Positions 2,769-30,105 of a DNA stretch of 34,371 bases are shown here, piece by piece (positions within the stretch are counted from its first letter, which is position 1; each line of letters begins with the position of its first letter). The stretch is from positions 1-34,371 of the forward strand of contig JACQCE010000121.1 in assembly GCA_016201765.1 (NCBI GenBank), in the 5' to 3' direction. The DNA is from Nitrospirota bacterium (GTDB taxonomy: Bacteria; Nitrospirota; Nitrospiria; JACQCE01). The notes beneath the pieces are model-generated. The model did not search any database. It saw only the letters and a program-made list of their open reading frames with translations, and had not been told where the DNA came from. The translations under genes and the position numbers were made by a program.

Positions 2769-3170
2769 ATGACGACCGCAACGGCGACCGGAACTCCTGA
2801 ACAGAAACGGCCGTTGGATCTGACGATCTTCGGCGTCCTGTTTTTGATCAGCGCACCGATGGAGTTGGGAAGCATTCTCAGCACGGGATGGAACTATCCG
2901 GTCAAGTTCTTTGGTGTCGAATTGGCCGGCTTGGCCCGGACGATATGGTTGGGCGCCCATCCGTTGTTCCATCTGGTGATGGGTTACGGATTTCTAAAGC
3001 AGTATCGCTGGGTGATCTACCTCACGTGTTTTTATGCGGCCGACGCGATGACCAGCGCGGTTGTCAGGTTTTATCTGCAAGGATATGGTTTCTGGCGCAC
3101 GGTGTTTCTTGTTGCCATCCCTCCCTTTGTCATCTACGTAATCGCCCGCCGGCGCTACTTTGTCAGGTGA
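2769..3170 (+). CDS. Small multi-pass membrane protein, function unknown
   Basis: 133-aa ORF with several hydrophobic segments, in an operon with its neighbours. Confidence 0.65.
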   Translation: MTTATATGTPEQKRPLDLTIFGVLFLISAPMELGSILSTGWNYPVKFFGVELAGLARTIWLGAHPLFHLVMGYGFLKQYRWVIYLTCFYAADAMTSAVVRFYLQGYGFWRTVFLVAIPPFVIYVIARRRYFVR

Positions 3171-4086
3171 CGGGATGAAGGACAAATACATCTACGCGGC
3201 GGTGGCCTTTGTGTTTCTCGCCTTTCTCCTGATGCTGGTGAGTTTCGCGTTTGAGGCGGTCATGGGCAAACGGAGCCAGGTGGCGAAGCGCGGGCCGAAG
3301 TCCCCTCCGCAGTTTGATCTGTCCGGACAGGATTTTTCAGGGGTGAAGACCCTGACCATGCCCGACGGCAGCGTGCTGGATCTGATTCCACCCGGCATCT
3401 TCCTCCGGGGCAGTCGGCCGGGGGAGGGTGACACCGACGAGATGCCGCAACTGCCCGTCTATGTGAGCGCCTTCTATATCGATCAATACGAAGTCACCAA
3501 CGGGCAGTATGAGCAATTTACGAAGGCGACCAAGTTTCCCAAACCCTTCATCCCATTTTTCGAGGATGAGATCACCAAAATCACCACGCCGGCCCTCCCG
3601 GCCGTGGGCGTTTCCTGGGATGGCGCGGCCGCCTTTTGCAAATGGGCGGGCAAACGGCTGCCCACCGAGGCCGAGTGGGAAAAGGCGGCGCGCTGGGAGG
3701 ACGGACGGAGGTGGTCCTGGGGCAATGCGGATGAGGTCGGCCGGGCCAACCTCGCCGGCGAAGATGACGGCTTCAAATATTCGGCGCCGCCCGGCTCATT
3801 TCCGGCGAGCCGGAGCCTCTACGGGCCGTATGACATGATCGGCAACGTCAATGAATGGGTGGCCGATTGGTACGAAGAGGACTACTACGGCAAGGCGCCC
3901 CAGAAGGATCCGAAGGGGGCGGAAAAATCCCGCAACAAGGTGTTTCGCGGCGGATCGTGGAATGACATGGGGCTGAACGCCCGGGCGGCCAAGCGGTTTG
4001 CCGCCGTGCCCCATCGGACGGATGCGATCATTGGATTTCGCTGCGCGATGGATCTGGAGCCCAAAGAGGGCGGAAGTGCGGACTAA
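3160..4086 (+). CDS. Membrane-anchored SUMF1/formylglycine-generating-enzyme-like protein
   Basis: N-terminal TM helix; FYIDQYEVTNGQYEQF, PAVGVSWDGAAAFCKWAGKRLPTEAEWEKAARW, GNVNEWVADWY, VFRGGSWND, GFRCAMD are hallmark FGE-sulfatase motifs. Start may be 3160 or 3175. Confidence 0.92.
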   Translation: MSGDGMKDKYIYAAVAFVFLAFLLMLVSFAFEAVMGKRSQVAKRGPKSPPQFDLSGQDFSGVKTLTMPDGSVLDLIPPGIFLRGSRPGEGDTDEMPQLPVYVSAFYIDQYEVTNGQYEQFTKATKFPKPFIPFFEDEITKITTPALPAVGVSWDGAAAFCKWAGKRLPTEAEWEKAARWEDGRRWSWGNADEVGRANLAGEDDGFKYSAPPGSFPASRSLYGPYDMIGNVNEWVADWYEEDYYGKAPQKDPKGAEKSRNKVFRGGSWNDMGLNARAAKRFAAVPHRTDAIIGFRCAMDLEPKEGGSAD

Positions 4087-4167: not shown

Positions 4168-4878
4168 TCACATCGGCGCAATCTTCGGCGGGTAGATCAC
4201 GTAGAGCAGGACGTACGTCGTGGTGCTGGTCACCAGCGCGATCACATAGAGCACCATCGTGAACGTGCCGATCGCCCGGTGGCGGCGCTCCCCATCCGGG
4301 AACCACCGTTCGATCCCTCTTTCCACGAAGAGGACCGCGGCAACCAGCAGAAAGCCAGAAATGTAGACGATGAGCCGGGCCACATTGTGCCAGCGGATCA
4401 CGGCCGCGACCGCAAACAGCACAAACGTCAGGCCGAGTATCTTATACAACGCTCCCGTGGTCATCGACAGCGCCCCCGCCTGCAGCACCCGCTGGCCGTT
4501 CTTTTTGATGGCGGTCCGGAATCCCAGGATGATCATGTAGACCGCCATCACCAGCCCGATGCTGACCACGAGGATGTGCACCGTCAGCAGCGGGCTGAAG
4601 ATATACGTATAGACCCACGCCGGCCCGCCAAACCCTTCCTGATTCTCCGTCGCCAGCGCCCCCAACCCCCTGGCCAGATAATAAAAGGTGAAATAGATCA
4701 GCATGCCCACCATCGCCCAGAGGACGAGCGTGTGATGGCGGTTGCCGTCACGGCGCCTGGCTAAACGCCAGCCGATGATGAAGAGGATGGTGAAGAACAG
4801 CGCCATGAGGAAGCTGGCATCGGCGCCGAACGTGCCGTGAGTGCCGAGAAAACCGGGGCTGGTGAGGAGGGCTTTCAT
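4168..4878 (-). CDS. DUF420-like multi-pass membrane protein
   Basis: Multiple TM helices with conserved His positions (HHTLVLWAMVGMLIYFTFYY, LLTVHILVVSIGLVMAVYMIILG, HNVARLIVYISGF); overlaps the upstream gene by 4 nt. Confidence 0.6.
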   Translation of the reverse strand: MKALLTSPGFLGTHGTFGADASFLMALFFTILFIIGWRLARRRDGNRHHTLVLWAMVGMLIYFTFYYLARGLGALATENQEGFGGPAWVYTYIFSPLLTVHILVVSIGLVMAVYMIILGFRTAIKKNGQRVLQAGALSMTTGALYKILGLTFVLFAVAAVIRWHNVARLIVYISGFLLVAAVLFVERGIERWFPDGERRHRAIGTFTMVLYVIALVTSTTTYVLLYVIYPPKIAPM

Positions 4879-5567
4879 CCAGAGCCGAACACGGCGCGCT
4901 GCAAGCCGTCCCAGAAACGGCCCCGCGCGTTGAGCGATCGCAAGACACCGTCCCGGATGACGGTCCGGGGCTCCTCGGCGCCCATGTAACGCACGATCAA
5001 CTCGTTGAACACCTTGGCGTGCTCCTTGTCCTCAACGATGTGGAGCGTGAAATAGGCGAGCGCCTCCTCCGGCACCCGTCCCGAGGCGCGCAACCCTTCG
5101 ACCAGATAGGTGAACATGGTGGGGATTGAATATTCATGCCCCGGGCCGATCGCACCCAGCGCGGCCAGAAAATGGCCGGAGCGGGTCAGCTCCAGATGGT
5201 ACTCGATAAAGCTGGAGGTTTCCGGCAACAAGGGCACCCGGCCCCATTCGGCGTCGTCCAGACCGAGCGCTTTGAGGAACGTGCGGTACATCGCCGGGTG
5301 GCTGTTGAAGATCGTATGCTGACCGAACTCGTCGTCAAACACGGTGCGAAAGAGTTTGGCGGCGTCGGGGTCGGGCAGCCGGGGCAGCAGGTTGGTCATG
5401 TAGGTGGTGAACACCTTGACCAGTTGATAGTGCTGCAGGCCGAACGCGCGGATCTGGTCGAGCGACAGCTTGCCGGTGGCAAACCGCCGTAAAAAGGGGT
5501 GGTGCACGGCCGGGTGTGTCGCAATCTCCTCTTCCAGTGTCGTCAGATGATCAACAGGTAACAGCAT
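4875..5567 (-). CDS. Heme-oxygenase-fold (PqqC/CADD/iron-containing redox enzyme-like) protein
   Basis: ATHPAVHHPFLRRFATGKLSLDQIRAFGLQHY, DDEFGQHTIFNSH, GPGHEYSIPTMF, FTLHIVEDKEHAKVFNEL (HxxxDxxH metal-ligand pattern). Confidence 0.82.
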   Translation of the reverse strand: MLLPVDHLTTLEEEIATHPAVHHPFLRRFATGKLSLDQIRAFGLQHYQLVKVFTTYMTNLLPRLPDPDAAKLFRTVFDDEFGQHTIFNSHPAMYRTFLKALGLDDAEWGRVPLLPETSSFIEYHLELTRSGHFLAALGAIGPGHEYSIPTMFTYLVEGLRASGRVPEEALAYFTLHIVEDKEHAKVFNELIVRYMGAEEPRTVIRDGVLRSLNARGRFWDGLQRAVFGSG

Positions 5568-5618
5568 CGCCCCTCCCCCACCCTCCCGGCAATCTCGCCG
5601 GCAATCTCGAATACCCGC

Positions 5619-6314
5619 TCAGATCCCCATGCTCATGAACTTTTCCTTCGCCTCATCCATCAGCGCCGCCGTCACGGCGGTCAGTCCCCGGTCCCGGGCG
5701 ATCCGCTCGATCTCCTTGCGGGCCATCGGCCGGACGAAGGACGGGATATTTTCCAGCCGTTTCTCCGCCTCTGGCGCCCACGTCATGCCGGTCGGCGCGT
5801 TCTTCGACGCTTCCATCACGGCGGGCGTAATCAGCGTAATGCCGTTCGAGCGGGCGTAATTTTCCACGCTGCTTTGCAGCATCGGCTTGACGAAGGCCGG
5901 GACCTGTTCCATCCGCTCCAGCGCCTCGCGCGACCATTCCATTTTGGCGCCCGGCTGTTGCATGCCGGAGATCATCGAGGAGAAGGGACATTTGCCTGCG
6001 CCGGTTCCCATGGCCGCGCTCAGGGCTGAGGCGGATGGGGCGGCACTGGCGGTTGCCGTGCTGGTTGACGCTTCAGCCACGGCCGGATCTTTGAGCGTCT
6101 CCCGGGTCAATTCCATCGGCCCCGCCGGTTCGGTCCGGCCGCCGAGCTTCACGCCCAGCGCCTGGACCATGCTCGTCTCGCCGGGATTGGTCACCATCGA
6201 GAAGCGGGAGCCGCACTCCGGGCACTCGAACGTGATTCCCAGCGAGGCTTCCGCCGGGCTTTCCAGCTTCTCGAACAGCATGAAGGTTTCACATTTTCGG
6301 CAGACGAATTTCAT
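5619..6314 (-). CDS. Zinc-ribbon protein with two C-terminal PCP_red-like domains
   Basis: MKFVCRKCETFMLFEK...ITFECPECGSRFSM ribbon; repeats MEWSREALERMEQVPAFVKPMLQSSVENYARSNGITLITPAVM and MTWAPEAEKRLENIPSFVRPMARKEIERIARDRGLTAVTAALM. Confidence 0.88.
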   Translation of the reverse strand: MKFVCRKCETFMLFEKLESPAEASLGITFECPECGSRFSMVTNPGETSMVQALGVKLGGRTEPAGPMELTRETLKDPAVAEASTSTATASAAPSASALSAAMGTGAGKCPFSSMISGMQQPGAKMEWSREALERMEQVPAFVKPMLQSSVENYARSNGITLITPAVMEASKNAPTGMTWAPEAEKRLENIPSFVRPMARKEIERIARDRGLTAVTAALMDEAKEKFMSMGI

Positions 6315-6342
6315 TCCTCGCTCCTTTCAGGTGATAGTCCAG

Positions 6343-7263
6343 CTATAACAAATTGGCCATGAGCTTCTTAAACTCGAGCGCCTGGGTCAGCCGTTCCGCG
6401 ATGGCGTCAAAGTGACGCACCGATGGCAACGTGGGATCGAGCAGCGGCTCGCCCCGGTCGGCCGCGGCCCCCAGCGCCCGGTCGAAGGGGATGCGTCCCA
6501 GAAACGGCACGTCCATCTCCCGGGCGATGATCTCCGCATCGCCGGAGAAGAGCGGCTCCTCCGCCCCACACCGGTGGCAGACCGTGCCGCTCATGTTTTC
6601 CACCAATCCCAAGACTTTAATCCCCAGGTCCCGGGCGTACGAGATCGATTTTTTGACCACCTGCGTGGCGACTTCGGAGGGAATCGTCACGATGACCGCG
6701 CCGTCCAGCTCGGGCAGATAGCCCGCCAGGACCGGCGGCTTGTCGGCCGCCGCGCCGGGCGGCAGATCGGTGAAGAGATAATCCAGCTCGCCCCACAGAA
6801 TATCGGCCAGAAATTCCCGGATCACGCTCATCTCCTGCAACCCCAGCCAGACGGGCGACAGCTCCATCGGCCCCTTCCAGCGGACCGGGGCGTCGGGCTG
6901 CAATAGAAATTCCATCGAGGCGACCTTGATCCCCAGCGGTCCGGTCGGTGGAATGGCGCCTTCGGGCGTGAGGGCGAAGCGCTGACCCTTGAGCCCCAGC
7001 ATGGCCGGCACGCAGGGGCCGTTCAAGTCGATATCCAGCAGGCCGACCTTGTGGCCGGCCCGCGCGAAGGCGAGCGCCAGGTTGACCGTGGTCATGCTCT
7101 TGCCGACGCCGCCCTTGCCGCTCATGACCAGGATCTTGCGTTTGATCCGGCCCATGCGGGTTTTCACCTGGAGCAACTGGTCGACGATCTGCTCCTGCAC
7201 CTTGGCGTCGTCGTTGTATTGCATCTTGGAGAGAACGGTTTTGAGATCTTTTTCTTCGGCCAT
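6343..7263 (-). CDS. Mrp/NBP35 (ApbC) family P-loop ATPase, putative Fe-S carrier
   Basis: KILVMSGKGGVGKSMTTVNLALAFARAGHKVGLLDIDLNGPCVPAMLGL, LFTDLPPGAAAD, VENMSGTVCHRCG (CxxC). Confidence 0.93.
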   Translation of the reverse strand: MAEEKDLKTVLSKMQYNDDAKVQEQIVDQLLQVKTRMGRIKRKILVMSGKGGVGKSMTTVNLALAFARAGHKVGLLDIDLNGPCVPAMLGLKGQRFALTPEGAIPPTGPLGIKVASMEFLLQPDAPVRWKGPMELSPVWLGLQEMSVIREFLADILWGELDYLFTDLPPGAAADKPPVLAGYLPELDGAVIVTIPSEVATQVVKKSISYARDLGIKVLGLVENMSGTVCHRCGAEEPLFSGDAEIIAREMDVPFLGRIPFDRALGAAADRGEPLLDPTLPSVRHFDAIAERLTQALEFKKLMANLL

Positions 7264-7267
7264 TGGT

Positions 7268-8299
7268 TTAGTCCCGTTCTGTCTGTGAGGGTTTGGGAGG
7301 GTCGTCCACCTTGAGCGACGGAGGTTTGGGTGTGCCGTCCGCCTTGAGATAACTGCGGAACCGGTTCATGAGTTCCTCGCCCAGGTTGCCGATCGGCCCC
7401 TTTTTGCTGACGTAGGTGCGGATCTCCTCCATCCGCTTGGCCGCCTCGGTGTTCCCTTGCAGCCGCTTGACCTTTTCCTTGGCGGTGTCGAAGGCGTCGA
7501 ACGTCAGCTCCCGGTAGCCGAGACTGCGGATCCGCATCACGGCCCGCATCATGGCTTCGTTGCGAAAACCGGTCAAGAGATCCGAAGTGATCAGATCGAC
7601 CTTGGCTTTGCGCGCTTTTCGCTCGGCGGCTTTTTTGATCCCGCTGCGCACAAAATCAGGGGCGGTCTGCAACCGGGCCCACGCCTCGTCGCTCCATTTG
7701 ACCTGGCTTAACGGAGTGTCCCAAATCTCGGTCAGCACGGGTGCTGTGATCTCCGTGATGCCCCGTTCGCGTGCCTGCTCTTCGACGTCATGGCGGAGCA
7801 TGGAGCTGACAAAGTCGCGGGCGATCTCGGGCGACTGCTCGACTTTGCGGGCCAGTTGTCCAAGCGCGTCCATCGTCCAGGGGAGGGTTGATTCGGGCCC
7901 CTCGTTATCGATCACCCCCAGCGCCTCCACTCTGGCGAAGAGGGTCGTATTCACTTCCATGTGGCCGCCGTCCCGGGCAAATTCCTCGGCAATCCGTTTG
8001 ATCATCCCCCGCATGAACTCCGGAACCGTCTCCAATCGTTCCCGCGCCTCCTGTGTCCAGGGCAGTTCGCCTTTTGCGATCTTGTCGGCCGCGTCCTGCA
8101 GGCCGGCCGAGCCGCCCATTGATCCCATCGCCTGGTTTTTCCATTCGGCCAGCAACTCGGCCGTAATCCGGGCGCAGCCCACTTCTCGGGCTTTCTTCTC
8201 GGCCAGTTTCTTGACCATGCCCTGCAGGAAAATCGGCGCGCGTTTGACGCTGTCGAGCGCTTCAGGCGCCCATTGGATGGTTTGCTCGGTCTGACTCAT
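7268..8299 (-). CDS. Protein with four tandem PCP_red-like domains
   Basis: IQWAPEALDSVKRAPIFLQGMVKKLAEKKAREVGCARITAELL; LPWTQEARERLETVPEFMRGMIKRIAEEFARDGGHMEVNTTLF; LPWTMDALGQLARKVEQSPEIARDFVSSMLRHDVEEQARERGITEITAPVL; VKWSDEAWARLQTAPDFVRSGIKKAAERKARKAKVDLITSDLL. Confidence 0.85.
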   Translation of the reverse strand: MSQTEQTIQWAPEALDSVKRAPIFLQGMVKKLAEKKAREVGCARITAELLAEWKNQAMGSMGGSAGLQDAADKIAKGELPWTQEARERLETVPEFMRGMIKRIAEEFARDGGHMEVNTTLFARVEALGVIDNEGPESTLPWTMDALGQLARKVEQSPEIARDFVSSMLRHDVEEQARERGITEITAPVLTEIWDTPLSQVKWSDEAWARLQTAPDFVRSGIKKAAERKARKAKVDLITSDLLTGFRNEAMMRAVMRIRSLGYRELTFDAFDTAKEKVKRLQGNTEAAKRMEEIRTYVSKKGPIGNLGEELMNRFRSYLKADGTPKPPSLKVDDPPKPSQTERD

Positions 8300-18648: not shown

Positions 18649-19035
18649 ATGTCCCTTCCATTAGACTGCGGCTATCACCTATGGAAGCGACAGATCACCG
18701 TGAACAAACGAAGACTTCTTTTGATCACGACGCGGTCGTTATTCGGGACGGGTCTGATGAGTCTTCTGGAGCAGCAAACGGACCGGGTTGCCATCGAAAC
18801 GGCGGCCGATGTCCGGACTGCCCTTCAAAAAAGTCAGACGTTTCAGCCGGACGTGGTCCTCTACTTCAGGGAGACCAGCCGGCCGGAGGACGAGGCGTTG
18901 TTGCAGGAACTGATGAGCCGGCACCGGGCCCGCGTCATTCATTGCACGCTGGAGGCGGATCGACTCACCATTTACGACCAGACAAGCATCAACCATGCCA
19001 CGGTGGACGATCTGATGACCGCCGTGCTGAAATGA
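18649..19035 (+). CDS. Degenerate receiver-like protein
   Basis: RRLLLITTRSLFGTGLMSLLEQQTDRVAIETAADVRTALQKSQTFQPDVVLYF: receiver-like periodicity without the acidic pocket or phospho-Asp. Exact start uncertain. Confidence 0.6.
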   Translation: MSLPLDCGYHLWKRQITVNKRRLLLITTRSLFGTGLMSLLEQQTDRVAIETAADVRTALQKSQTFQPDVVLYFRETSRPEDEALLQELMSRHRARVIHCTLEADRLTIYDQTSINHATVDDLMTAVLK

Positions 19036-19057: not shown

Positions 19058-22000
19058 ATGAACCAGAGAGAGCAATGGCTGAAGGGGTTGCCGTGGCCGC
19101 AGGCCGCGGCGGTGGTGAGCGGATTGCTGTGGGCGTTCGGCGGGAGCGGCACCTTCCCCCCGGCGCTGGCCGAAGAGGAGCACAGCCACGGCGCCGCCGT
19201 GACGGCGGCCCAGCCCTCGCTGGCGTCGTGGGACGCCCAGCTCAAAGATCAACTCGATCGCGAATACACCATGGAAGGCCGGGAGGCGCAGCGGACCAAG
19301 GTCGAAGACGCGATGCAAAAGCTGATGGATGAAATCTCCCACGGCGGCGGGCGGCACGACGCCCAGGCGTCGCAAGGCCCCTATAACGAAATGGCCATGA
19401 GCCAGCAGATGGACCGGAGCTTCTTTCTGGGGCCCACCGGCGTCGCCGAGACGGTGACGGCCGGCGGCCAGTGTCCCAAAAGCGCGCCCGTGCGCGAGTT
19501 CGACATCTCGGCCATCAATGTCGAGATCACGCTCAATCAGTGGCAGGATTACCATCCAGGCTACATGTATGTGCTGACCGAGAATGTCAACAAGGTGCGT
19601 GACGAGGAAAAACGGAACAGGGAGGCGCGCAAGAAGGAAGGGTATGACATTGGCGCGGTGTCGACCGGGTTGCAGACCGATCTCATCCAACCGCTCAATA
19701 TCCGCGGCAACCAGGGCGATTGCGTGGTGATCACGCTGCGCAATCAGTTGGACGATGAAGACGTGGGATTGCACATCCATGGCTCCAGCATAATCATCAA
19801 ATCGACCGGCGCGGCGGCGACGGCGGCCAATCCCGACACGAATATCAAACCCGGCAAGAGCCAGGTGTTCAGCTGGTACATCCGGCCCGAGGAGCAGGAA
19901 GGCGTGCACATGTTGCACAGCCACGTCGGCCGCGAGCAGGCCAGCCTGGGAATGATCGGCTCCTTCATCGTGGAGCCGGTCGGCTCAACCTATCTCGACG
20001 CGGTCACCGGCCAGGAGACCAAGAGCGGCTGGCAGGTGATGATCGCCAATCCGACCATCCCCGATTTCAGGGAATTCGTGATCTTCTATCATGAGATCGG
20101 CGACGAATCGTTCCGGCCGCTCAACCGCAACGGCGAGATGATCCCGCAGCGCGACCCGAACACCGACGCCTACCGGCCCTCGGCCCGCGCCATCAACTAC
20201 CGGAGCGAGCCGTTCGGCGTCAACAATCTGGCCTTGCAGGAGAAATATTTTCATTTTGAAGATGAATCGATGGCCTACAGTTCCTACACCTTCGGCGATG
20301 TGCCGACGCCTTTACCCCGCTCCTACATGGGCGATCCGGCCAAATACCGGCTGGTCCACGGCGGCGGCGAAGTGTTTCATTCGCACCATCCGCACGGCGG
20401 GTCCATCCGCTGGTTGAGGCAGCCGAAGGCCGACAGCAAGGAGTCGGAACTGCTCACGGCGGCCGCCAACGGGCCGGTCAAATATCCCGTGATTCGGACC
20501 ACGTCCGACCGGGTCGATGTGGAAGTGATCGGTCCTTCCGAAGCGCTCGATCTGAATACCGAGTGCGGCTCGGGCCTCTGCCAGCAACTGGCGGGCGATT
20601 TTCTCTTCCACTGCCACGTCGCGCATCACTATGTCGCCGGCATGTGGTCCTACTGGCGGGTCTATAACACCCTTCAGAACGGCAACTATCCGGTGGGCAG
20701 CACCGATATCATGCCGGCGTTGCAGGAGTTGCCCGATCGGAAGGGGCGCATGAAGCCGGGTGTGACGTCTGACAAACTGGTTGGTCGGACGATGGATTGG
20801 TATGACAAGAAATGGAACATCACGTCCGGCAAGACCGATTTTGCCAAGCCGGTGGCCGATATTTTGGTGAAGGACTGGGTCAAAATGATGCTCCCGCCTG
20901 CCGGTCAACCGGGCCACACCGCCGATGAGAAGGGCCAGATCACGGCCTATGACTCGAGCGTCTGGGATTGGTCATGGGACGGGAACAAGGCGTTGGGCGA
21001 ACCGGAAGTGACCGGCGCCTTCCCCTGGCCGAAGTATGTCTCGCCGATGCCGGGCAAGCGGCCGCCGCTGCTCTTCGAAGAGAAGACGGGCAAACTGGCC
21101 TGGCCGCACTTCAAGCCGCACCTGGGCAAACGGGTGCCGTTTGCGCGCCATCACGGGCCGGCGCCCTGGCTCGAACCGATCCATGTCGACAAGACGAACG
21201 TCGCGGTCGGAGACGATCCCGGCAGTCTGGGCGCGCCGAACGAGGAGACCACGCTGCCGGCCAAGCCGGGTGAGCAGGGACGATGGAGTCTCTGCCCCGA
21301 GAACGCGGGCCGCAAGCAGTACACCATTCACTTCATCGAAACGCCCATCACGATGAACAAGGCGATCGGCAAGGAAAAGGCGGTCGTCGATCAACACGGC
21401 ACGATCTACGTGCTGCATGAAGAGGAAGCGGCGGTGCGTGCCAACAGCGATCTGGCCCGTCCGCTGGTCTACCGCGGGAACATCTATGACTGCGTGGATG
21501 TGATTCTGAAGAGCGAGTGGGAGGACAACAACACCACAAACTTTCAGATGTCGAAGATCAACATCCACCCGCACTTCATGCAGTTCGACAATCAGTCGTC
21601 TGACGGCGTGATCACCGGCTTCTCCTACGAGCAGTCGGTCCGGCCGTTTACGGAGATGGCCAAGAAGGAGCACAAGGGGCTTCCCGCGCCGATGACCTCC
21701 ACCGTGGTCGATGACACCAGGAGCGGAGCCGCCTCCATGACGGTGAAGATGGCCGAGGGCGCCACCCCCTTTCATGAAAATACCGACGTCATGATCGGGA
21801 TGCAACAGGTGAAAACGTCCGAGGTGCGGTGGATCCGGAAGATCGCAAAGGGCTCGAAGGAGGGGGAGTACACGCTCACCTTCAATGAGCCGCTCAAACA
21901 CGCGCACAAGAAGGGCGAGATCGCCTCGGTCGAATATGTCCGCTACCGTTACTGGGTGGATGTCGACCTCGGCACGGTCTTCTGGCACGATCACGCGCTG

Positions 22001-23992
22001 GGCGGCACGACCTGGCCGCACGGGGCGGTCGGCGGGATCATCATCGAACCGGTGGGCTCCACCTATCACGATCCGGTGACCGGCAAGCAGATCCGCAGCG
22101 GTCCGATCGCGGACATCCACACCACCGAACCGGTCGGCTACGGCGTGAACGGGAGTTTCCGGGAGATGGTGATGTATCTGCACGACACGGTGCCCTACAC
22201 GGCGCAGGTCGTGACGGCCGGCAACCCGCCCGGACAGACCGTCCAGGCGGCGATCGACGCGGGACAGGCGCTCTTCTTCCAGATGCCCTACAATCTGGAC
22301 ATCACGCCGGTCTCCGTGATCAACGGCGGCACGCACACCACCGGCGGCGGGATCTTCTTCCGCGCCGAATCGGTCGCCAAGCGGTTGAAGCACAACCCGG
22401 ACCCGTCGCTGGTCTTTTCGTCCAGGACCCACGGCGATCCAGGCACGCTGCTCTTCCGCGCCTACGTGGGCGATCCGGTCGTCTTCCGGTTGATGCACGT
22501 GATGATGAATGAGACCCACACCTGGAAGATCGCCGGCCACGTGTTCCGGACGGAGCGGTACGCCGAGCATTCCGACCTGCGCAACAACTGGCACGTCGGC
22601 ATTGCGGAGCGGTACGACCTGGTGAGCAAAGCCGGCGGCCCGATGGGGATCGCGGGCGACTACCTCTACTACAACGGTCGTCCCTCCCATCTCTCCGAGG
22701 GCAGCTGGGGCATCTTCCGGGTGCTGGACAAGGAGACGCCCGACCTGCAGAAGCTGCCGGGTCGCGAGGAGGTGCCGGCGTCGGCCAAGGCGGTCTGTCC
22801 CGCCGATGCGCCGGTCAAGGCGTTCAGCGTGCTGGCCGTCGATCGGGCGTTGAAATTCAACCCGAACGCGCCCGATGTGCTGGAGGTGGATTTCGACCGC
22901 AAGCTGGAGGTGGCCAATCCCAAGGGCAAGATCTTCATGCTCGAGGGGGAGAAGACGAAGGTGGCCGCGGACGGCTTCCGGCCGTCGCCGCTGACCCTGC
23001 ACGTGAACGTGGGCGACTGCATCAAGGTCACCCTGAAGAACGAGATGAAGGCGAACCGCGCCTCCTTCTCGGCCGACATGCTGGCGTTCGATCCGAAGGA
23101 TTCCCAGGGCGTGAACGTCGGCAACAACCCCGGGGATCAGACGATCGGCCCGGGCCAGACGCGGACCTACACCTTCTATGCGCATCCCTACACGGGTGAG
23201 GGCGCCGTGCTGGTGTGGGATTGGGGCAACTTCATCAACGACATCCGCGACGGCCTGTTCGGCGCGATCATTGTCGGCCCGAAGGGCTCCAAGTACCGGG
23301 ATTCGGTCACGGGCGAGGAGGTCACGCTCAAGAACGCCTGGCAGGTGGATGTGCTGGTCGACCGCTCGGTCCCGGGGAACGCGGGCCGCGCCGACTACCG
23401 TGATGCGTCCCTCTTCTTCCAGGATGAGGACAACATCATCGGGACGGCCTTCATGCCCTACATCCAGCAGATCGCCGGATTGACGGGCGTGAATTACCGG
23501 AGCGAGCCGTGGAGCTGGCGCGAGGAGCACGGCTGCGAGCTGGGGACGATGTACACCCCCTGCGCCGTCGCGGCGGAGTCGGATATTGCGACGCCGGTGG
23601 TGCTCTCTCACGCGGGCGACGAGGTCCGGCTGCATGTGTTCGGCGCCTTCAACGAGCAGAATCAAATCTTCAGCATCGAGGGACATGAATTCCCCCTGAA
23701 ACCGGACATGACGGGCGCCGATCTGGAGAGCTCGATCGAGTTCGGCTCGGCCGAAGGGCTGAACATCGTCCTGAACTCCGCGGGCGGGCCCTTTGCGATT
23801 CCGGGCAACTACATCTGGCAGGATCACCGGATGCCCTACGCCCAGGCGGGCGAATGGGGCTATCTGCGGGTGCTGCCGGCCGGGGATCGCAAGCTCCTGC
23901 CGCTGGGCGGCGGTGCGCCCGGTTCCCGGGCGGTGCAGGCGCCGAAAGAGGGTGACGGGGTTCCGGTCTCCCTGCTGGAGCCGTCGAAGTAA
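19058..23992 (+). CDS. Giant secreted multicopper oxidase, three homologous two-cupredoxin modules
   Basis: Signal peptide; module 1 motifs HIHG, HSH, HSHHPHGG, HCHVAHHYVAGMW; module 2 HPHF and WHDH; module 3 homologous but ligand-poor. Repeated module starts CPKSAPVREF / CPENAGRKQY / CPADAPVKAF. Confidence 0.93.
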   Translation: MNQREQWLKGLPWPQAAAVVSGLLWAFGGSGTFPPALAEEEHSHGAAVTAAQPSLASWDAQLKDQLDREYTMEGREAQRTKVEDAMQKLMDEISHGGGRHDAQASQGPYNEMAMSQQMDRSFFLGPTGVAETVTAGGQCPKSAPVREFDISAINVEITLNQWQDYHPGYMYVLTENVNKVRDEEKRNREARKKEGYDIGAVSTGLQTDLIQPLNIRGNQGDCVVITLRNQLDDEDVGLHIHGSSIIIKSTGAAATAANPDTNIKPGKSQVFSWYIRPEEQEGVHMLHSHVGREQASLGMIGSFIVEPVGSTYLDAVTGQETKSGWQVMIANPTIPDFREFVIFYHEIGDESFRPLNRNGEMIPQRDPNTDAYRPSARAINYRSEPFGVNNLALQEKYFHFEDESMAYSSYTFGDVPTPLPRSYMGDPAKYRLVHGGGEVFHSHHPHGGSIRWLRQPKADSKESELLTAAANGPVKYPVIRTTSDRVDVEVIGPSEALDLNTECGSGLCQQLAGDFLFHCHVAHHYVAGMWSYWRVYNTLQNGNYPVGSTDIMPALQELPDRKGRMKPGVTSDKLVGRTMDWYDKKWNITSGKTDFAKPVADILVKDWVKMMLPPAGQPGHTADEKGQITAYDSSVWDWSWDGNKALGEPEVTGAFPWPKYVSPMPGKRPPLLFEEKTGKLAWPHFKPHLGKRVPFARHHGPAPWLEPIHVDKTNVAVGDDPGSLGAPNEETTLPAKPGEQGRWSLCPENAGRKQYTIHFIETPITMNKAIGKEKAVVDQHGTIYVLHEEEAAVRANSDLARPLVYRGNIYDCVDVILKSEWEDNNTTNFQMSKINIHPHFMQFDNQSSDGVITGFSYEQSVRPFTEMAKKEHKGLPAPMTSTVVDDTRSGAASMTVKMAEGATPFHENTDVMIGMQQVKTSEVRWIRKIAKGSKEGEYTLTFNEPLKHAHKKGEIASVEYVRYRYWVDVDLGTVFWHDHALGGTTWPHGAVGGIIIEPVGSTYHDPVTGKQIRSGPIADIHTTEPVGYGVNGSFREMVMYLHDTVPYTAQVVTAGNPPGQTVQAAIDAGQALFFQMPYNLDITPVSVINGGTHTTGGGIFFRAESVAKRLKHNPDPSLVFSSRTHGDPGTLLFRAYVGDPVVFRLMHVMMNETHTWKIAGHVFRTERYAEHSDLRNNWHVGIAERYDLVSKAGGPMGIAGDYLYYNGRPSHLSEGSWGIFRVLDKETPDLQKLPGREEVPASAKAVCPADAPVKAFSVLAVDRALKFNPNAPDVLEVDFDRKLEVANPKGKIFMLEGEKTKVAADGFRPSPLTLHVNVGDCIKVTLKNEMKANRASFSADMLAFDPKDSQGVNVGNNPGDQTIGPGQTRTYTFYAHPYTGEGAVLVWDWGNFINDIRDGLFGAIIVGPKGSKYRDSVTGEEVTLKNAWQVDVLVDRSVPGNAGRADYRDASLFFQDEDNIIGTAFMPYIQQIAGLTGVNYRSEPWSWREEHGCELGTMYTPCAVAAESDIATPVVLSHAGDEVRLHVFGAFNEQNQIFSIEGHEFPLKPDMTGADLESSIEFGSAEGLNIVLNSAGGPFAIPGNYIWQDHRMPYAQAGEWGYLRVLPAGDRKLLPLGGGAPGSRAVQAPKEGDGVPVSLLEPSK

Positions 23993-24089: not shown

Positions 24090-25049
24090 ATGGCTGGTCT
24101 GAGGGATAAGCGGCGGCGGATCGCGGTGCTTGTGGCCGGCATGGTCTTGCTGGGGGCGATGGGATGGCCGGGGCGTTCTGCCGCCTATGAAGAAATCGCG
24201 GTGCGTAACGGCGGCACGCTGACCGGCCGGGTGGTGCTGAACGGACCGGTGCCCGAACCACGGGTTTTTTCACTGGTCCTCTATCCATTCGGCCCGTTCT
24301 GCAAGCGCATTTCCGACGGCCAGGGGCATGTCCTGTTGCAGGAGTTTCTCGTCGGGTCGGAGGGAGGCCTGCAGGACGCCGTCGTGACGGTGCAGCATGT
24401 CTCGCAAGGCAAGCCGTTCCCTCCCATCAAAAATGAGTTCGTCGCGGTTGACTGCATGTTCCATCCGGCCGACGTGCCGCAGGCTGAGCAGTATATTGTG
24501 ACGGAGAAGGGGCGGTTGACCCACGCCCATCCGGTGGTGGCGATCCTGCAAAACCACCAGCCGATCTCGGTGATCAACAAAGACCCGATCATCCACAACG
24601 GCCAGGTCTTTCAGAGCGAACGGGGCAATATCGTGCTCAATTTTCCCCTGCCGGTTTCAGCCGAGCCGCGCGGGGGGCCCATTCATTTCGAACCGGGCAA
24701 GCGGATCGCGCAGATGATCTGCGGCATGCACGAGTTCATGCAGAGCTGGGGCTTCATGGTGGACAACCCCTATTACGCCCGGACCAAGCGGGACGGGAGG
24801 TTCAGCATTGATACCCTGCCGCCGGGGACGTATACGGTGTCGGCCTGGCATCCCCATCTGCAACCGATTGAACGGTCGATCACCATCCGGGCCGGTGAGA
24901 CCACCGCCATCGACTTTACATTCGACGCCAGGACGGTGGTCCGGCCGAGCTATGAGAGCCAGGAGAAGTTCCGGATCGGACCGGAATCCAAACCGCACGA
25001 GCACCTGCAGGGAGGCGAGTGTGAGCCCCCATACTGCACGCCGAAATAA
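24090..25049 (+). CDS. Secreted CarboxypepD_reg-like/cupredoxin-like protein, paralog 1
   Basis: Signal peptide; YEEIAVRNGGTLTGRVVLNG; NKDPIIHN and CGMHEFMQSW (type-1 Cu-like His...Cys-x2-His-x3-Met); C-terminal DGRFSIDTLPPGTYTVSAWHPHLQP. Confidence 0.82.
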   Translation: MAGLRDKRRRIAVLVAGMVLLGAMGWPGRSAAYEEIAVRNGGTLTGRVVLNGPVPEPRVFSLVLYPFGPFCKRISDGQGHVLLQEFLVGSEGGLQDAVVTVQHVSQGKPFPPIKNEFVAVDCMFHPADVPQAEQYIVTEKGRLTHAHPVVAILQNHQPISVINKDPIIHNGQVFQSERGNIVLNFPLPVSAEPRGGPIHFEPGKRIAQMICGMHEFMQSWGFMVDNPYYARTKRDGRFSIDTLPPGTYTVSAWHPHLQPIERSITIRAGETTAIDFTFDARTVVRPSYESQEKFRIGPESKPHEHLQGGECEPPYCTPK

Positions 25050-25923
25050 CAGGAGTTGGCCGGCCGCGTGGGGCGGTCGGTTCGCCGTGATGGGCGCGCT
25101 GCTGTTTCTGCTGGCGTCGCCGTCGCCGAGTCCGGCCTATGAGGAGATCACGGTCACCGGCGGCGGCACGGTGACGGGACGGGTCACGCTACAAGGCGCC
25201 CCTCCCCCCACCCGGATTTTTCATATGGTCTTCTCGCCGAATATTGAGTTCTGCACGCGCATCTCCGACGGCAAGGGCAACCGGCTCCTTCAGGAGTTTC
25301 ACATCTCAAAGGAGGGCGGGTTTCAGGATGTGGTCGTGGCCGTGGTGGGTGTCGAGAAGGGGAAGCGGTTCGATTATGCGCCCCGGATCGAACTGGAACA
25401 CTGCCGGATTGGGCCGTTTGTGACGCCGGTTCGGAACCATCAGCCGTTGACCATTGTGAACAAGGATCCGGTGGTGCACGACATCCAGGGCTACACGCTG
25501 AAGGACAACTACACCTTTGCCATGTTCAATAAACCGATGCTGCCGAAGGATCAGGTCGTGAAGGAAATCCGGTTGCGAAAAGACCACTCTATCTTCCGGA
25601 CCCAGTGCGGCGTCCATGATTTCATGCAATCATGGGGCATGGCGGTCGGCAATCCCTATTTTGCCGTGACCGATGCCGACGGCCGCTTCACAATTCCGGA
25701 CCTGCCGCCGGGCGACTATGACGTCGTCGCCTGGCATCCCTACATGCAGGTGCAGGCTCTCGCCCTCACCGTGCCGGCGAACGGCGAGGTCGCGTTGAGC
25801 TTCCAATTCAACGCCGGCGAGGTGAGCATCCCCTATTACAATCTTCAAACCGGCTACCGCCTCCAGCCGGCGCTTGATCTCATCCCGTTGCAACCGCCCT
25901 CCGTGGAGCTTCAGACGCCGTAG
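25021..25923 (+). CDS. Secreted CarboxypepD_reg-like/cupredoxin-like protein, paralog 2
   Basis: GTG start at 25021 with GGAGG just upstream, overlapping the end of paralog 1; YEEITVTGGGTVTGRVTLQG, NKDPVVHD, CGVHDFMQSWGMAVGNPYF, DGRFTIPDLPPGDYDVVAWHPYMQ. The ORF-track start at 24808 is rejected. Confidence 0.82.
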   Translation: MSPHTARRNNRSWPAAWGGRFAVMGALLFLLASPSPSPAYEEITVTGGGTVTGRVTLQGAPPPTRIFHMVFSPNIEFCTRISDGKGNRLLQEFHISKEGGFQDVVVAVVGVEKGKRFDYAPRIELEHCRIGPFVTPVRNHQPLTIVNKDPVVHDIQGYTLKDNYTFAMFNKPMLPKDQVVKEIRLRKDHSIFRTQCGVHDFMQSWGMAVGNPYFAVTDADGRFTIPDLPPGDYDVVAWHPYMQVQALALTVPANGEVALSFQFNAGEVSIPYYNLQTGYRLQPALDLIPLQPPSVELQTP

Positions 25924-27095: not shown

Positions 27096-28697
27096 ATGGC
27101 TGATGAACAATCAGGCTGGAAGGCCTACGCGCTGAAATTCCTGGAAGCGGCGCCCGACGGCGTCGTCATTCTGGACCGGGAAGGGCGGATTGCGTTCATC
27201 AACACGCAATTGCTGACCCTCTTCGGGTATGTCCGGGAAGAATTGATCGGCCAACCTGTCGAACTCCTGATTCCAGAACGCTTTCGCGGCCGCCATCTCG
27301 TCCACCGGGCCGACTATGCCGACCAACCCCGCGTGCGTCCGATGGGGGTCTGTCTCGAGCTCTCCGGCCTGCGCAAGGACGGCAGCGAGTTTCCGGTCGA
27401 GATCAGCCTGAGTCCGGTCGACACGGAGGACGGCATGCTGATCATGAGCGTGATCCGGGATGTCACCGACAGCAAACGGAAGGAAACCGAGATCCGGTGG
27501 CTGAACCGGGAGCTGGAGCAGCGGGTGGTGGAGCAAACGGCCGAATTGGCGGCCGAGAAGCGGCTGTTCCTGGACTATCTGGATGTCGCCGGCGTCCTGA
27601 TCGTGGCCCTCAATGTCGATCAGACGGTGGTGTTGATCAACAAACGGGGCTGCGAAGTCCTGGGATGGCGGGAAGAGGAGATCATTGGCAAAAACTGGTT
27701 TGAGACCTTTCTGCCCGGGCGGATCAGGGATGAGGTCAAGGGGGTTTTTGATCAGTTGATATCCGGCTATGCAGAGTTTGTCGAATATGATCGCAACCCG
27801 ATTCTCACGAAGCACGGCGACGAACGGATGATCGCCTGGCACAATGCCGCGGTCAGGGACGAGCAGGGCCGGATTCGGGCCACGATCAGTTCGGGGGAGG
27901 ACATCACCGAGAAGCTGCTGCTGGAGGAGCAGATCCGCCAGTCGGAGAAACTCGCCGTGGTGGGGCAGCTGACGGCCGGCCTGGCCCACGAGATCGGCAC
28001 GCCGCTCAACGTCATCAGCGGACGCGCGGAGCACATGCTCCGCAAGATGGCGGCCGACGATCCCCTGCGCGTCAACTTGCAGAGCATTCTCGGCCAGATC
28101 GAGCGGATTACGAAAATCGTGAATCAATTGCTCAATTTCACCAGAAGCCGGCCGCCGGTGCTCCGGCCCGTCCCGTTTGCGCCGCTGATCCGGGAGGTGC
28201 TGTCGCTGGTGGATCACCAGTTTCGGGACGGCCGCATCGCCGTGGAGCTCGACTGCTCCGACGATTTGCCCGTCATTGTCGCCGATCCCGATCAGCTTCA
28301 GCAGGTCCTGTTGAATCTGGTCGTCAACGCCGTCCAGGCGATGCCGGAAGGGGGCCGCTTGACGATCCGGGCCGGCCGGACGGTGGCGCGGCGTGACCGG
28401 GAGGACCAGCTCGGCGATCACTATTTGAAGATTGAAATCACCGACACGGGCATCGGCATTGCCGAGGAGCACCTGCCGAAAGTCTTCGATCCGTTTTTCA
28501 CGACCAAGGACGTCGGCAAGGGGACCGGCCTCGGCCTGGCCGTCAGCAACAGCATTGCGCACAAGCACGGCGGATTCATGCTGGTCAAAAGCCGGGTCGG
28601 TGAGGGCGCTACCTTCAGCGCCTATCTGCCCCTGTCGCCGGATTGGTCCAAGCCGTCCGGCGCGGGCATGACTGCGGGGGGGCCTCGGCGTGGATAA
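27096..28697 (+). CDS. PAS-domain sensor histidine kinase (NtrB-like)
   Basis: Two PAS regions; LTAGLAHEIGTPLNVISGRAEHML (H-box); LQQVLLNLVVNAVQAMPEGG (N-box); GTGLGLAVSNSIAHKHGG (G-box). Confidence 0.96.
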   Translation: MADEQSGWKAYALKFLEAAPDGVVILDREGRIAFINTQLLTLFGYVREELIGQPVELLIPERFRGRHLVHRADYADQPRVRPMGVCLELSGLRKDGSEFPVEISLSPVDTEDGMLIMSVIRDVTDSKRKETEIRWLNRELEQRVVEQTAELAAEKRLFLDYLDVAGVLIVALNVDQTVVLINKRGCEVLGWREEEIIGKNWFETFLPGRIRDEVKGVFDQLISGYAEFVEYDRNPILTKHGDERMIAWHNAAVRDEQGRIRATISSGEDITEKLLLEEQIRQSEKLAVVGQLTAGLAHEIGTPLNVISGRAEHMLRKMAADDPLRVNLQSILGQIERITKIVNQLLNFTRSRPPVLRPVPFAPLIREVLSLVDHQFRDGRIAVELDCSDDLPVIVADPDQLQQVLLNLVVNAVQAMPEGGRLTIRAGRTVARRDREDQLGDHYLKIEITDTGIGIAEEHLPKVFDPFFTTKDVGKGTGLGLAVSNSIAHKHGGFMLVKSRVGEGATFSAYLPLSPDWSKPSGAGMTAGGPRRG

Positions 28698-30105
28698 CAG
28701 GTTTGGGGAGAGCGCGCCGGGGGAGAAGACCAGAGGCCGGTTGTTGGTGGTGGATGACGATCCGGAGATGTGCCGGCTGCTCGGCGAGGTCCTGACCGAA
28801 GAGGGGCACACGGTTCGGACGGCCACGAACGGCGCGGAGGCGCTGGGCCTGCTTGCCGCCTCGAGCGGAGAGCCCTTCGACCTGCTCATCACCGACCTCC
28901 ACCTGCCGGCGATGAAGGGGCTCGACCTGATGCTCCAGGCCAGGCAACGGCAACCGGATCTGTCGGTGATCATCATCACGGCGTTCGGCTCGATCGAGTC
29001 GGCGATCGACGCGATGAAGCGGGGCGCGTACGATTATCTGCCCAAGCCGTTCAAGATGGAGGAGCTGATGCTGACCGTGCGCAAGGCGCTCAGGGAGAAC
29101 GCATTGCGCCGGGAGGTCGTCCGGCTCAGGGAGGAGCTGAGCCGGGACTACCGGTTCGGCAATCTGATCGGCAAAAGCAAGGCGATCCGGTCGATCTTCG
29201 ATTTGATCCGGAGCGTGGCCTCAGCCAGCAGCAACGTGCTCATCACGGGGGAGAGCGGCACCGGCAAGGAGTTGGTGGCCAAGGCGATTCATTACAACGG
29301 GCTCCGCAAAGACCGCCCGTTCGTGCCGGTCAATTGCGCGGCGATTCCCGACACGCTGCTGGAAAGCGAGCTCTTCGGCCACGTCAAAGGCGCCTTCACC
29401 GACGCCCGAAGCGACAAGCCGGGCCTGTTTGAAGAGGCCGAGGGCGGCACGCTGTTCCTCGATGAGGTCACCGAATTGCCGCCGCCGCTCCAGGCCAAGC
29501 TGCTGCGGGTGCTCCAGGAAAAGGAGATCCGGCGGGTGGGATCGACCAAGCAGATCCCGGTCGATGTGCGGGTGATCGCCGCCTCCAATCTGGATCTGGC
29601 CGGGCAGGTGGCCCAGCGCCAGTTCCGGCAGGATCTGTTCTACCGGCTCAACGTGATCCACATTCCCGTGCCGCCGTTGCGGGAGCGGCGTGACGACATT
29701 CTGCTGCTGGCGGAGCGGTTTCTGGCCGCCCGTCAACAGGGGGGGGGCGGGAAACCTATTCGCGGCTTCAGCGAGCAGGTGCTGGCCTTCTTCCTTGATT
29801 ACGGCTGGCCCGGCAACGTGCGGGAACTGGAGAACATCGTGGAACGGGCCGTCATCGTGGCCAAGGGTGAACTGATCACGATGGAGGATCTGCCTCCGTC
29901 GATCACCGGAAGCCGGATCGATTACGCCGCCGTGGAGCAGGCGGTCCGGCGACAGCTCTCCCTTGCCGGGCTGGAGCGGGATTATATCAACCGGATCATC
30001 GCACAGACCGACGGCAACAAAAACCGGGCGGCGCAGATTCTTGGCATTGATCGGAAGACGCTCTACCGGAAGCTCGGCCAATCCAAGTCCGACGTCCCCT
30101 CATAG
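28690..30105 (+). CDS. NtrC-family sigma54-dependent response regulator
   Basis: LLVVDDDPEMCRLL receiver; GESGTGKELVAKAIHY; ESELFGHVKGAFTDARSDKPGLFEEA; C-terminal HTH NKNRAAQILGIDRKTLYRKL. Confidence 0.97.
   Translation: MDNRFGESAPGEKTRGRLLVVDDDPEMCRLLGEVLTEEGHTVRTATNGAEALGLLAASSGEPFDLLITDLHLPAMKGLDLMLQARQRQPDLSVIIITAFGSIESAIDAMKRGAYDYLPKPFKMEELMLTVRKALRENALRREVVRLREELSRDYRFGNLIGKSKAIRSIFDLIRSVASASSNVLITGESGTGKELVAKAIHYNGLRKDRPFVPVNCAAIPDTLLESELFGHVKGAFTDARSDKPGLFEEAEGGTLFLDEVTELPPPLQAKLLRVLQEKEIRRVGSTKQIPVDVRVIAASNLDLAGQVAQRQFRQDLFYRLNVIHIPVPPLRERRDDILLLAERFLAARQQGGGGKPIRGFSEQVLAFFLDYGWPGNVRELENIVERAVIVAKGELITMEDLPPSITGSRIDYAAVEQAVRRQLSLAGLERDYINRIIAQTDGNKNRAAQILGIDRKTLYRKLGQSKSDVPS

Follow-up and report, generated by a model that had tools for sequence, protein, structure and literature searches.

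A six-domain multicopper oxidase related to MnxG, linked to blue-copper genes in Nitrospirota and carrying a possible second metal site

The DNA stretch analysed here (the window; all 34,371 nucleotides of Nitrospirota contig JACQCE010000121.1, assembly GCA_016201765.1) encodes a multicopper oxidase which we read, with a probability of roughly 0.6, as a secreted or periplasmic six-domain enzyme of the MnxG type. It would contain one type 1 (T1) copper in domain 2 (D2) and one trinuclear set at the D2/D3 boundary, take its electrons from a metal or blue-copper donor and, in the window lineage, keep a reduced site between D1 and D6. The D2/D3 layout is known from earlier work (PMC3600357), and a MnxG-like oxidase common to Nitrospina and Nitrospira was described in 2013 (PMC3578206); the enzyme is therefore not a new kind of oxidase. 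New here are the near-universality of the family in the window's class, together with its presence in Nitrospinota and Ca. Manganitrophus, the position of a blue-copper gene next to the oxidase in 52 of 66 loci, with ligands invariant in 68/68 sequences, and the co-occurrence of four D1 histidines with a single D6 histidine, H1590, which occupies a T3-ligand position.

Results

The oxidase gene (19058–23992, + strand) starts with ATG and encodes 1,644 amino acids, including an N-terminal hydrophobic signal peptide that ends at PPALA/EE. The giant three-module multicopper oxidase proposed in an earlier note on this DNA was confirmed, with six cupredoxin domains and every quoted motif in its place: HIHG (H239, H241) and HSH (H287, H289) in D1, HSHHPHGG (441–448) and HCHVAHHYVAGMW (518–530) in D2, HPHF (837–840) and WHDH (976–979) in D3, YYNGRPSHLSEGSW in D4, SADM/VWDWGN in D5 and WQDHRMPYAQAGEW in D6. 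Pfam returned only generic Cu-oxidase domains, and the labels obtained from Pfam and NCBIfam were all generic or sub-threshold.

Copper-ligand roles were assigned by homology. When 29 members of the family were aligned with the Priestia MnxG and with further homologues, among them those from Streptomyces and Haladaptatus, a single conserved set emerged, HxxHxH and HCH-x3-H-x4-M in D2 and HxH and HDH in D3, whose 12 ligands could be aligned with Bacillaceae MnxG and with the Streptomyces and halophile homologues. In D2, the L3 motif HSHHPH (20378–20395, +; HSFHYH in MnxG) would supply H441 to the T1 copper and H444 and H446 to the trinuclear cluster, and the L4 motif HCHVAHHYVAGMW (20609–20647, +; HCHLYPHFGEGMW in MnxG) the trinuclear ligands H518 and H520 and the T1 ligands C519, H524 and M529. 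The remaining trinuclear histidines are H837 and H839 of the D3 L1 motif HPH (21566–21574, +; MHVH in MnxG) and H977 and H979 of the L2 motif WHDH (21983–21994, +), which is WHDH in MnxG as well. The three motifs HSHHPH, HCHVAHHYVAGMW and HPH, as well as both histidines of WHDH, were conserved in 112/112 family rows. Since all 12 primary-site ligands (four T1 ligands in D2 and eight trinuclear histidines at D2/D3) are thus invariant, the T1 copper is assigned to D2 (H441, C519, H524, M529) and the predicted trinuclear cluster to the space between D2 and D3. This is where the earlier note had guessed the cluster to be, between L3/L4 of module 1 and L1/L2 of module 2. The arrangement places the enzyme among the published bacterial six-domain oxidases, which have their trinuclear site at D2/D3 and a T1 copper in D2 only (PMC3600357). 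The description "ceruloplasmin-like" fits the domain count, but not the location of the cluster, which in ceruloplasmin lies between D1 and D6 (PMC3600357). Copper nitrite reductase was rejected as an identification on account of the HCH motif and the four HxH pairs.

The closest PDB match by sequence was MnxG of Bacillus (9bxa_A, E 1.1e-101, over several stretches). The AlphaFold model of modules 1 and 2 (residues 138–1240) was weak (pLDDT 63, much of D2 below 50) because only close homologues entered the alignment, and we relied on the Foldseek ranking of the model while disregarding its geometry; 9bxa_A came first (E 2.9e-43), followed by ceruloplasmin and factor V/VIII. The suspected kinship with MnxG was thus upheld by sequence, fold and the 12 shared ligands, and the window oxidase appears from its sequence to be a remote MnxG relative. 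Its score against the MnxG equivalog NF041487 was 116.8 versus a curated cut-off of 3100 bits, which was exceeded in none of 40 genomes. Neither the window nor 79 family loci contained a match to MnxE or MnxF with E below 0.04, and an Mnx complex (MnxEFG) was accordingly not recognised there; in the Priestia locus (L055), two small genes at the MnxE/F position precede the one for MnxG. The enzyme may have a metal-oxidase role, which is unproven given the NF041487 score and the failure to find MnxE/F partners.

The gene was present in 57 of 58 relatives belonging to the window's class, most of which carried two or more copies, and a full-length paralogue (74% identical) was found elsewhere in the window genome. 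Together with the 9bxa_A match and the invariance of the 12 ligands, this paralogue places the observation far beyond chance. In the phylum sample, 36/36 other genomes of the same class were positive, and the other classes gave 0/81 strong matches and four weak ones. The copies of Ca. Manganitrophus GAC4 were 77% and 74% identical to the window oxidase, that of Nitrospirae RIFCSPHIGHO2_01_FULL_66_17 80%, that of Troglogloeales 74%, and those of N. moscoviensis, Ca. N. defluvii and Nitrospinaceae about 60%. The phylogeny suggested by the earlier note covered MnxG out of the three Mn(II) oxidases named there (MnxG, MofA and McoA). The Nitrospirota/Nitrospinota family formed one clade (SH-aLRT 100%) apart from MnxG, with the Nitrospira and Nitrospina copies inside it and the window copy grouped with those of Manganitrophus and 66_17. 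A 2013 paper (PMC3578206) had already pointed out the oxidase of Nitrospina and Nitrospira, its similarity to MnxG and a role that it might have in relation to reactive oxygen. PMC9040806 reports two novel multicopper oxidases in every Manganitrophaceae genome, and these are probably members of the window oxidase family.

Several further sequences were encountered in the survey. In one copy (L020/L071) an in-frame TAA ends the reading frame ahead of the D6 ligand motif, and a second copy in that genome is intact. A Nitrospina-type copy on a 5.8-kb contig of very low coverage, assigned to a Candidatus Poseidoniales archaeon, is probably a binning error. Other giant multicopper oxidases of Nitrospirota (1,700–2,200 aa; contigs G138:C6, G138:C12, G132:C39, G051:C150 and G075:C33) were far more distant and are possibly MofA/McoA-like.

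One rival reading is that the enzyme is a full equivalent of MnxG, oxidising Mn(II) to MnO2 or Mn(III) for protection or as a source of energy. In favour of this are MnxG as the closest relative, the 74–77% identical copies in Ca. Manganitrophus and the two novel oxidases per genome reported for its family (PMC9040806). We nevertheless regard such equivalence as rather unlikely, considering the low identity to MnxG, the missed NF041487 cut-off, the failure to find MnxE/F homologues in the window or the 79 loci, the equal universality of the family in nitrite oxidisers and the preference, in PMC9040806, for Cyc2/PCC in Mn lithotrophy.

Directly downstream of the oxidase lie two genes for secreted type-1 (blue) copper proteins of the same family, each with a cupredoxin domain and a CarboxypepD_reg-like domain. 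The first (24090–25049, +) has the cupredoxin ligands H169 and C211-x2-H214-x2-M217; the second occupies 25090–25923 (+), its start being inferred within a longest ORF of 24808–25923. The predicted structure of the first product (pLDDT 88.6) matched the Nitrosopumilus purple cupredoxin and amicyanin with a probability of 1.00, and its fold and His...Cys-x2-His-x2-Met ligands identify it as a type-1 cupredoxin; it is these ligands that were invariant in 68/68 sequences. Beyond the 52 family loci in which the blue-copper gene is the next gene, it lay within 3.5 kb in a total of 56/66; two such genes were present within 2.5 kb in 20/66 loci, and 10/66, several of them from Nitrospinota, had none within 3.5 kb. 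With roughly five to nine copies of the blue-copper family per multi-megabase genome (an approximate reading), this linkage is not due to chance.

We infer that the linked proteins are electron-transfer partners of the oxidase. A rival reading makes the enzyme a cupredoxin oxidase or reductase of an electron-transport chain, in which the blue-copper proteins would be the physiological donor or acceptor irrespective of the substrate used for lithotrophy. The strong linkage to genes for T1 proteins, one or two per locus, the occurrence across lithotrophs using different substrates and the lack of a strong NxrA-type match in the window genome are all consistent with such a role, which we hold to be possible, though on the doubtful side, as the linkage is missing within 3.5 kb in those 10 loci and T1 proteins are also encoded elsewhere in the genomes. 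A tie to nitrite oxidoreductase was rejected: the type II DMSO-reductase model gave strong matches in N. defluvii and only weak ones in the window genome (86% complete) and in one Manganitrophus-family genome. Because the window genome has no strong NxrA-type match, the oxidase is not a speciality of nitrite oxidisers.

The surroundings of the gene contain further recurring elements. A 128-aa weak receiver-domain-like protein is encoded directly upstream (18649–19032, +), with a likewise placed homologue in L033. Genes for sigma-54-type response regulators and for PAS histidine kinases are found repeatedly in the neighbourhood of the oxidase (window 27096–30105; L036, L041, L043, L048, L050), which suggests two-component control of the oxidase genes; a sigma-54 promoter scan gave nothing above chance. 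Genes for formylglycine-generating-enzyme-like (FGE-sulfatase) proteins also recur (window 3160–4086; L041, L043, L045, L046, L049). A single run on the minus strand (4168–8299) encodes a DUF420 membrane protein, a haem-oxygenase-like/TenA protein, two PCP_red proteins (protochlorophyllide-reductase C-terminal-like) and an Mrp/NUBPL ATPase, and DUF420 and PCP_red homologues are also near the oxidase in L044, from a Nitrospira-type genome.

A second set of histidines marks the proposed D1/D6 metal site: the D1 L1 motif HIH (H239, H241; 19772–19780, +), the D1 L2 motif HSH (H287, H289; 19916–19924, +) and H1590 of the D6 motif WQDH (23825–23827, +). H1590 aligns without gaps to H520, the second histidine of the D2 HCH. 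Among 135 rows, 36 had the four D1 histidines and H1590, 98 had neither the complete D1 set nor H1590, and the remaining one had the D1 set in a sequence truncated before D6. H1590 was first picked out as the sole column splitting the groups fully and was then checked in an enlarged set, in which none of the other columns, out of 1,536 in all, had a frequency difference above 0.93; the 20 divergent sequences fetched after its discovery all conformed to the pairing. A tree calculated with these columns removed showed three switches of the D1 and H1590 traits, always jointly; three independent switches are too few for a tree-based pair test to reach significance. The complete set was absent from Nitrospira and Nitrospinota members, and in Nitrospira HSH is replaced by HxY/F/W and HIH often by xIQ or NIH. 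By homology with laccase-type oxidases such as CotA, the second histidine of D1 L1, the first of D1 L2 and the second of D6 L4 are the three ligands of one T3 copper.

As H1590 alone of 1,536 columns co-occurs with the four D1 histidines, the simplest reading is that a mononuclear or reduced metal site is kept at D1/D6, the position used in ceruloplasmin. The complete trinuclear centre of a ceruloplasmin-type oxidase was not found, the D1 side having 4/4 ligand positions and the D6 side 1/4 (H1590). The D1 histidines could instead be mere remnants that form no working site, inherited from a six-domain ancestor with three sites, and residual ligands between D1 and D6 have indeed been reported in other six-domain proteins (PMC3600357). 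We find this rather doubtful, since drift would not be expected to hold four D1 histidines and one D6 histidine together in 36 rows, nor to leave H1590 as the sole fully tracking column. Two claims of the earlier note need amending. Its statement that module 3 has no canonical ligands is not entirely correct, given H1590 in WQDH. Its reading of module 1 as a self-contained set, with ligands progressively lost, was not supported: the D1 L1/L2 motifs belong to the D6/D1 interface, and Nitrospira and Nitrospinota lost them while keeping the main site.

Discussion

In the mechanism we favour, the T1 copper would accept electrons singly from a reduced donor, for which low-valent ions of Mn, Fe or Cu and the co-encoded blue-copper proteins are the likeliest candidates, and pass them over the Cys519-His518/His520 bridge to the trinuclear cluster, where O2 would be reduced to water. 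In the window lineage, which includes Ca. Manganitrophus, H239, H241, H287, H289 and H1590 would keep a reduced metal site that lacks a T1 copper; this is probably either a single copper bound by three histidines in a T3-like manner or a site for the substrate metal. The reduction of O2, the kind of donor and the metal in the second site are inferred, and the substrate is a guess. Speaking against this reading, the Nitrospira and Nitrospinota members lack the second site and have yet been retained. Defence against reactive oxygen through Mn(III), proposed for the homologue of N. gracilis and N. defluvii (PMC3578206), seems to us very improbable: the proposal was speculative in that paper and leaves both the linked blue-copper genes and the D1/D6 site unexplained.

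According to PMC9040806, the novel Manganitrophaceae oxidases could take part in electron uptake from Mn only on condition that a carrier in the periplasm received the electrons. In Ca. Manganitrophus, the linked blue-copper proteins may be this carrier. By extension, the window/Manganitrophus lineage might possess a dual-site, lithotrophic electron-harvesting oxidase, in which the MnxG-type D2/D3 site is joined by a working five-histidine D1/D6 site, perhaps binding or oxidising Mn or Fe, and electrons go to dedicated blue-copper carriers and not only to O2. We consider this improbable. The near class-universal, uncharacterised copper enzyme of Nitrospira-type lithotrophs, for which a second metal site is predicted, makes a well-defined target for study.

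Among known systems, the oxidase resembles MnxG of Bacillus (PDB 9bxa; Priestia megaterium plasmid copy, L055), with which it shares six cupredoxin domains, the T1 copper in D2, the trinuclear ligands in D2 and D3 and aligned WHDH and HCH...GMW motifs. MnxG, however, has about 1,220 aa, MnxE/F subunits and no D1/D6 histidine site, whereas the window oxidase has about 1,640 aa, a long D2–D3 linker, an extra D3 insert and blue-copper neighbours in place of MnxE/F. The MnxG-like oxidases of Nitrospina gracilis and Ca. Nitrospira defluvii (PMC3578206) belong to the same family (about 58–61% identity over the full length), without the complete D1/D6 histidine set. Ceruloplasmin and hephaestin are likewise six-domain chains of three modules, and the second histidine set sits at the D1/D6 position of the trinuclear centre of ceruloplasmin; unlike them, the window oxidase has its main site at D2/D3, a single T1 copper and neither a T1 site nor an HCH in D6. 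In two-domain laccases and NirK-type trimers, too, the site forms where the second domain of a module meets the first domain of its neighbour; in the window oxidase the modules are fused in one chain with one complete site only.
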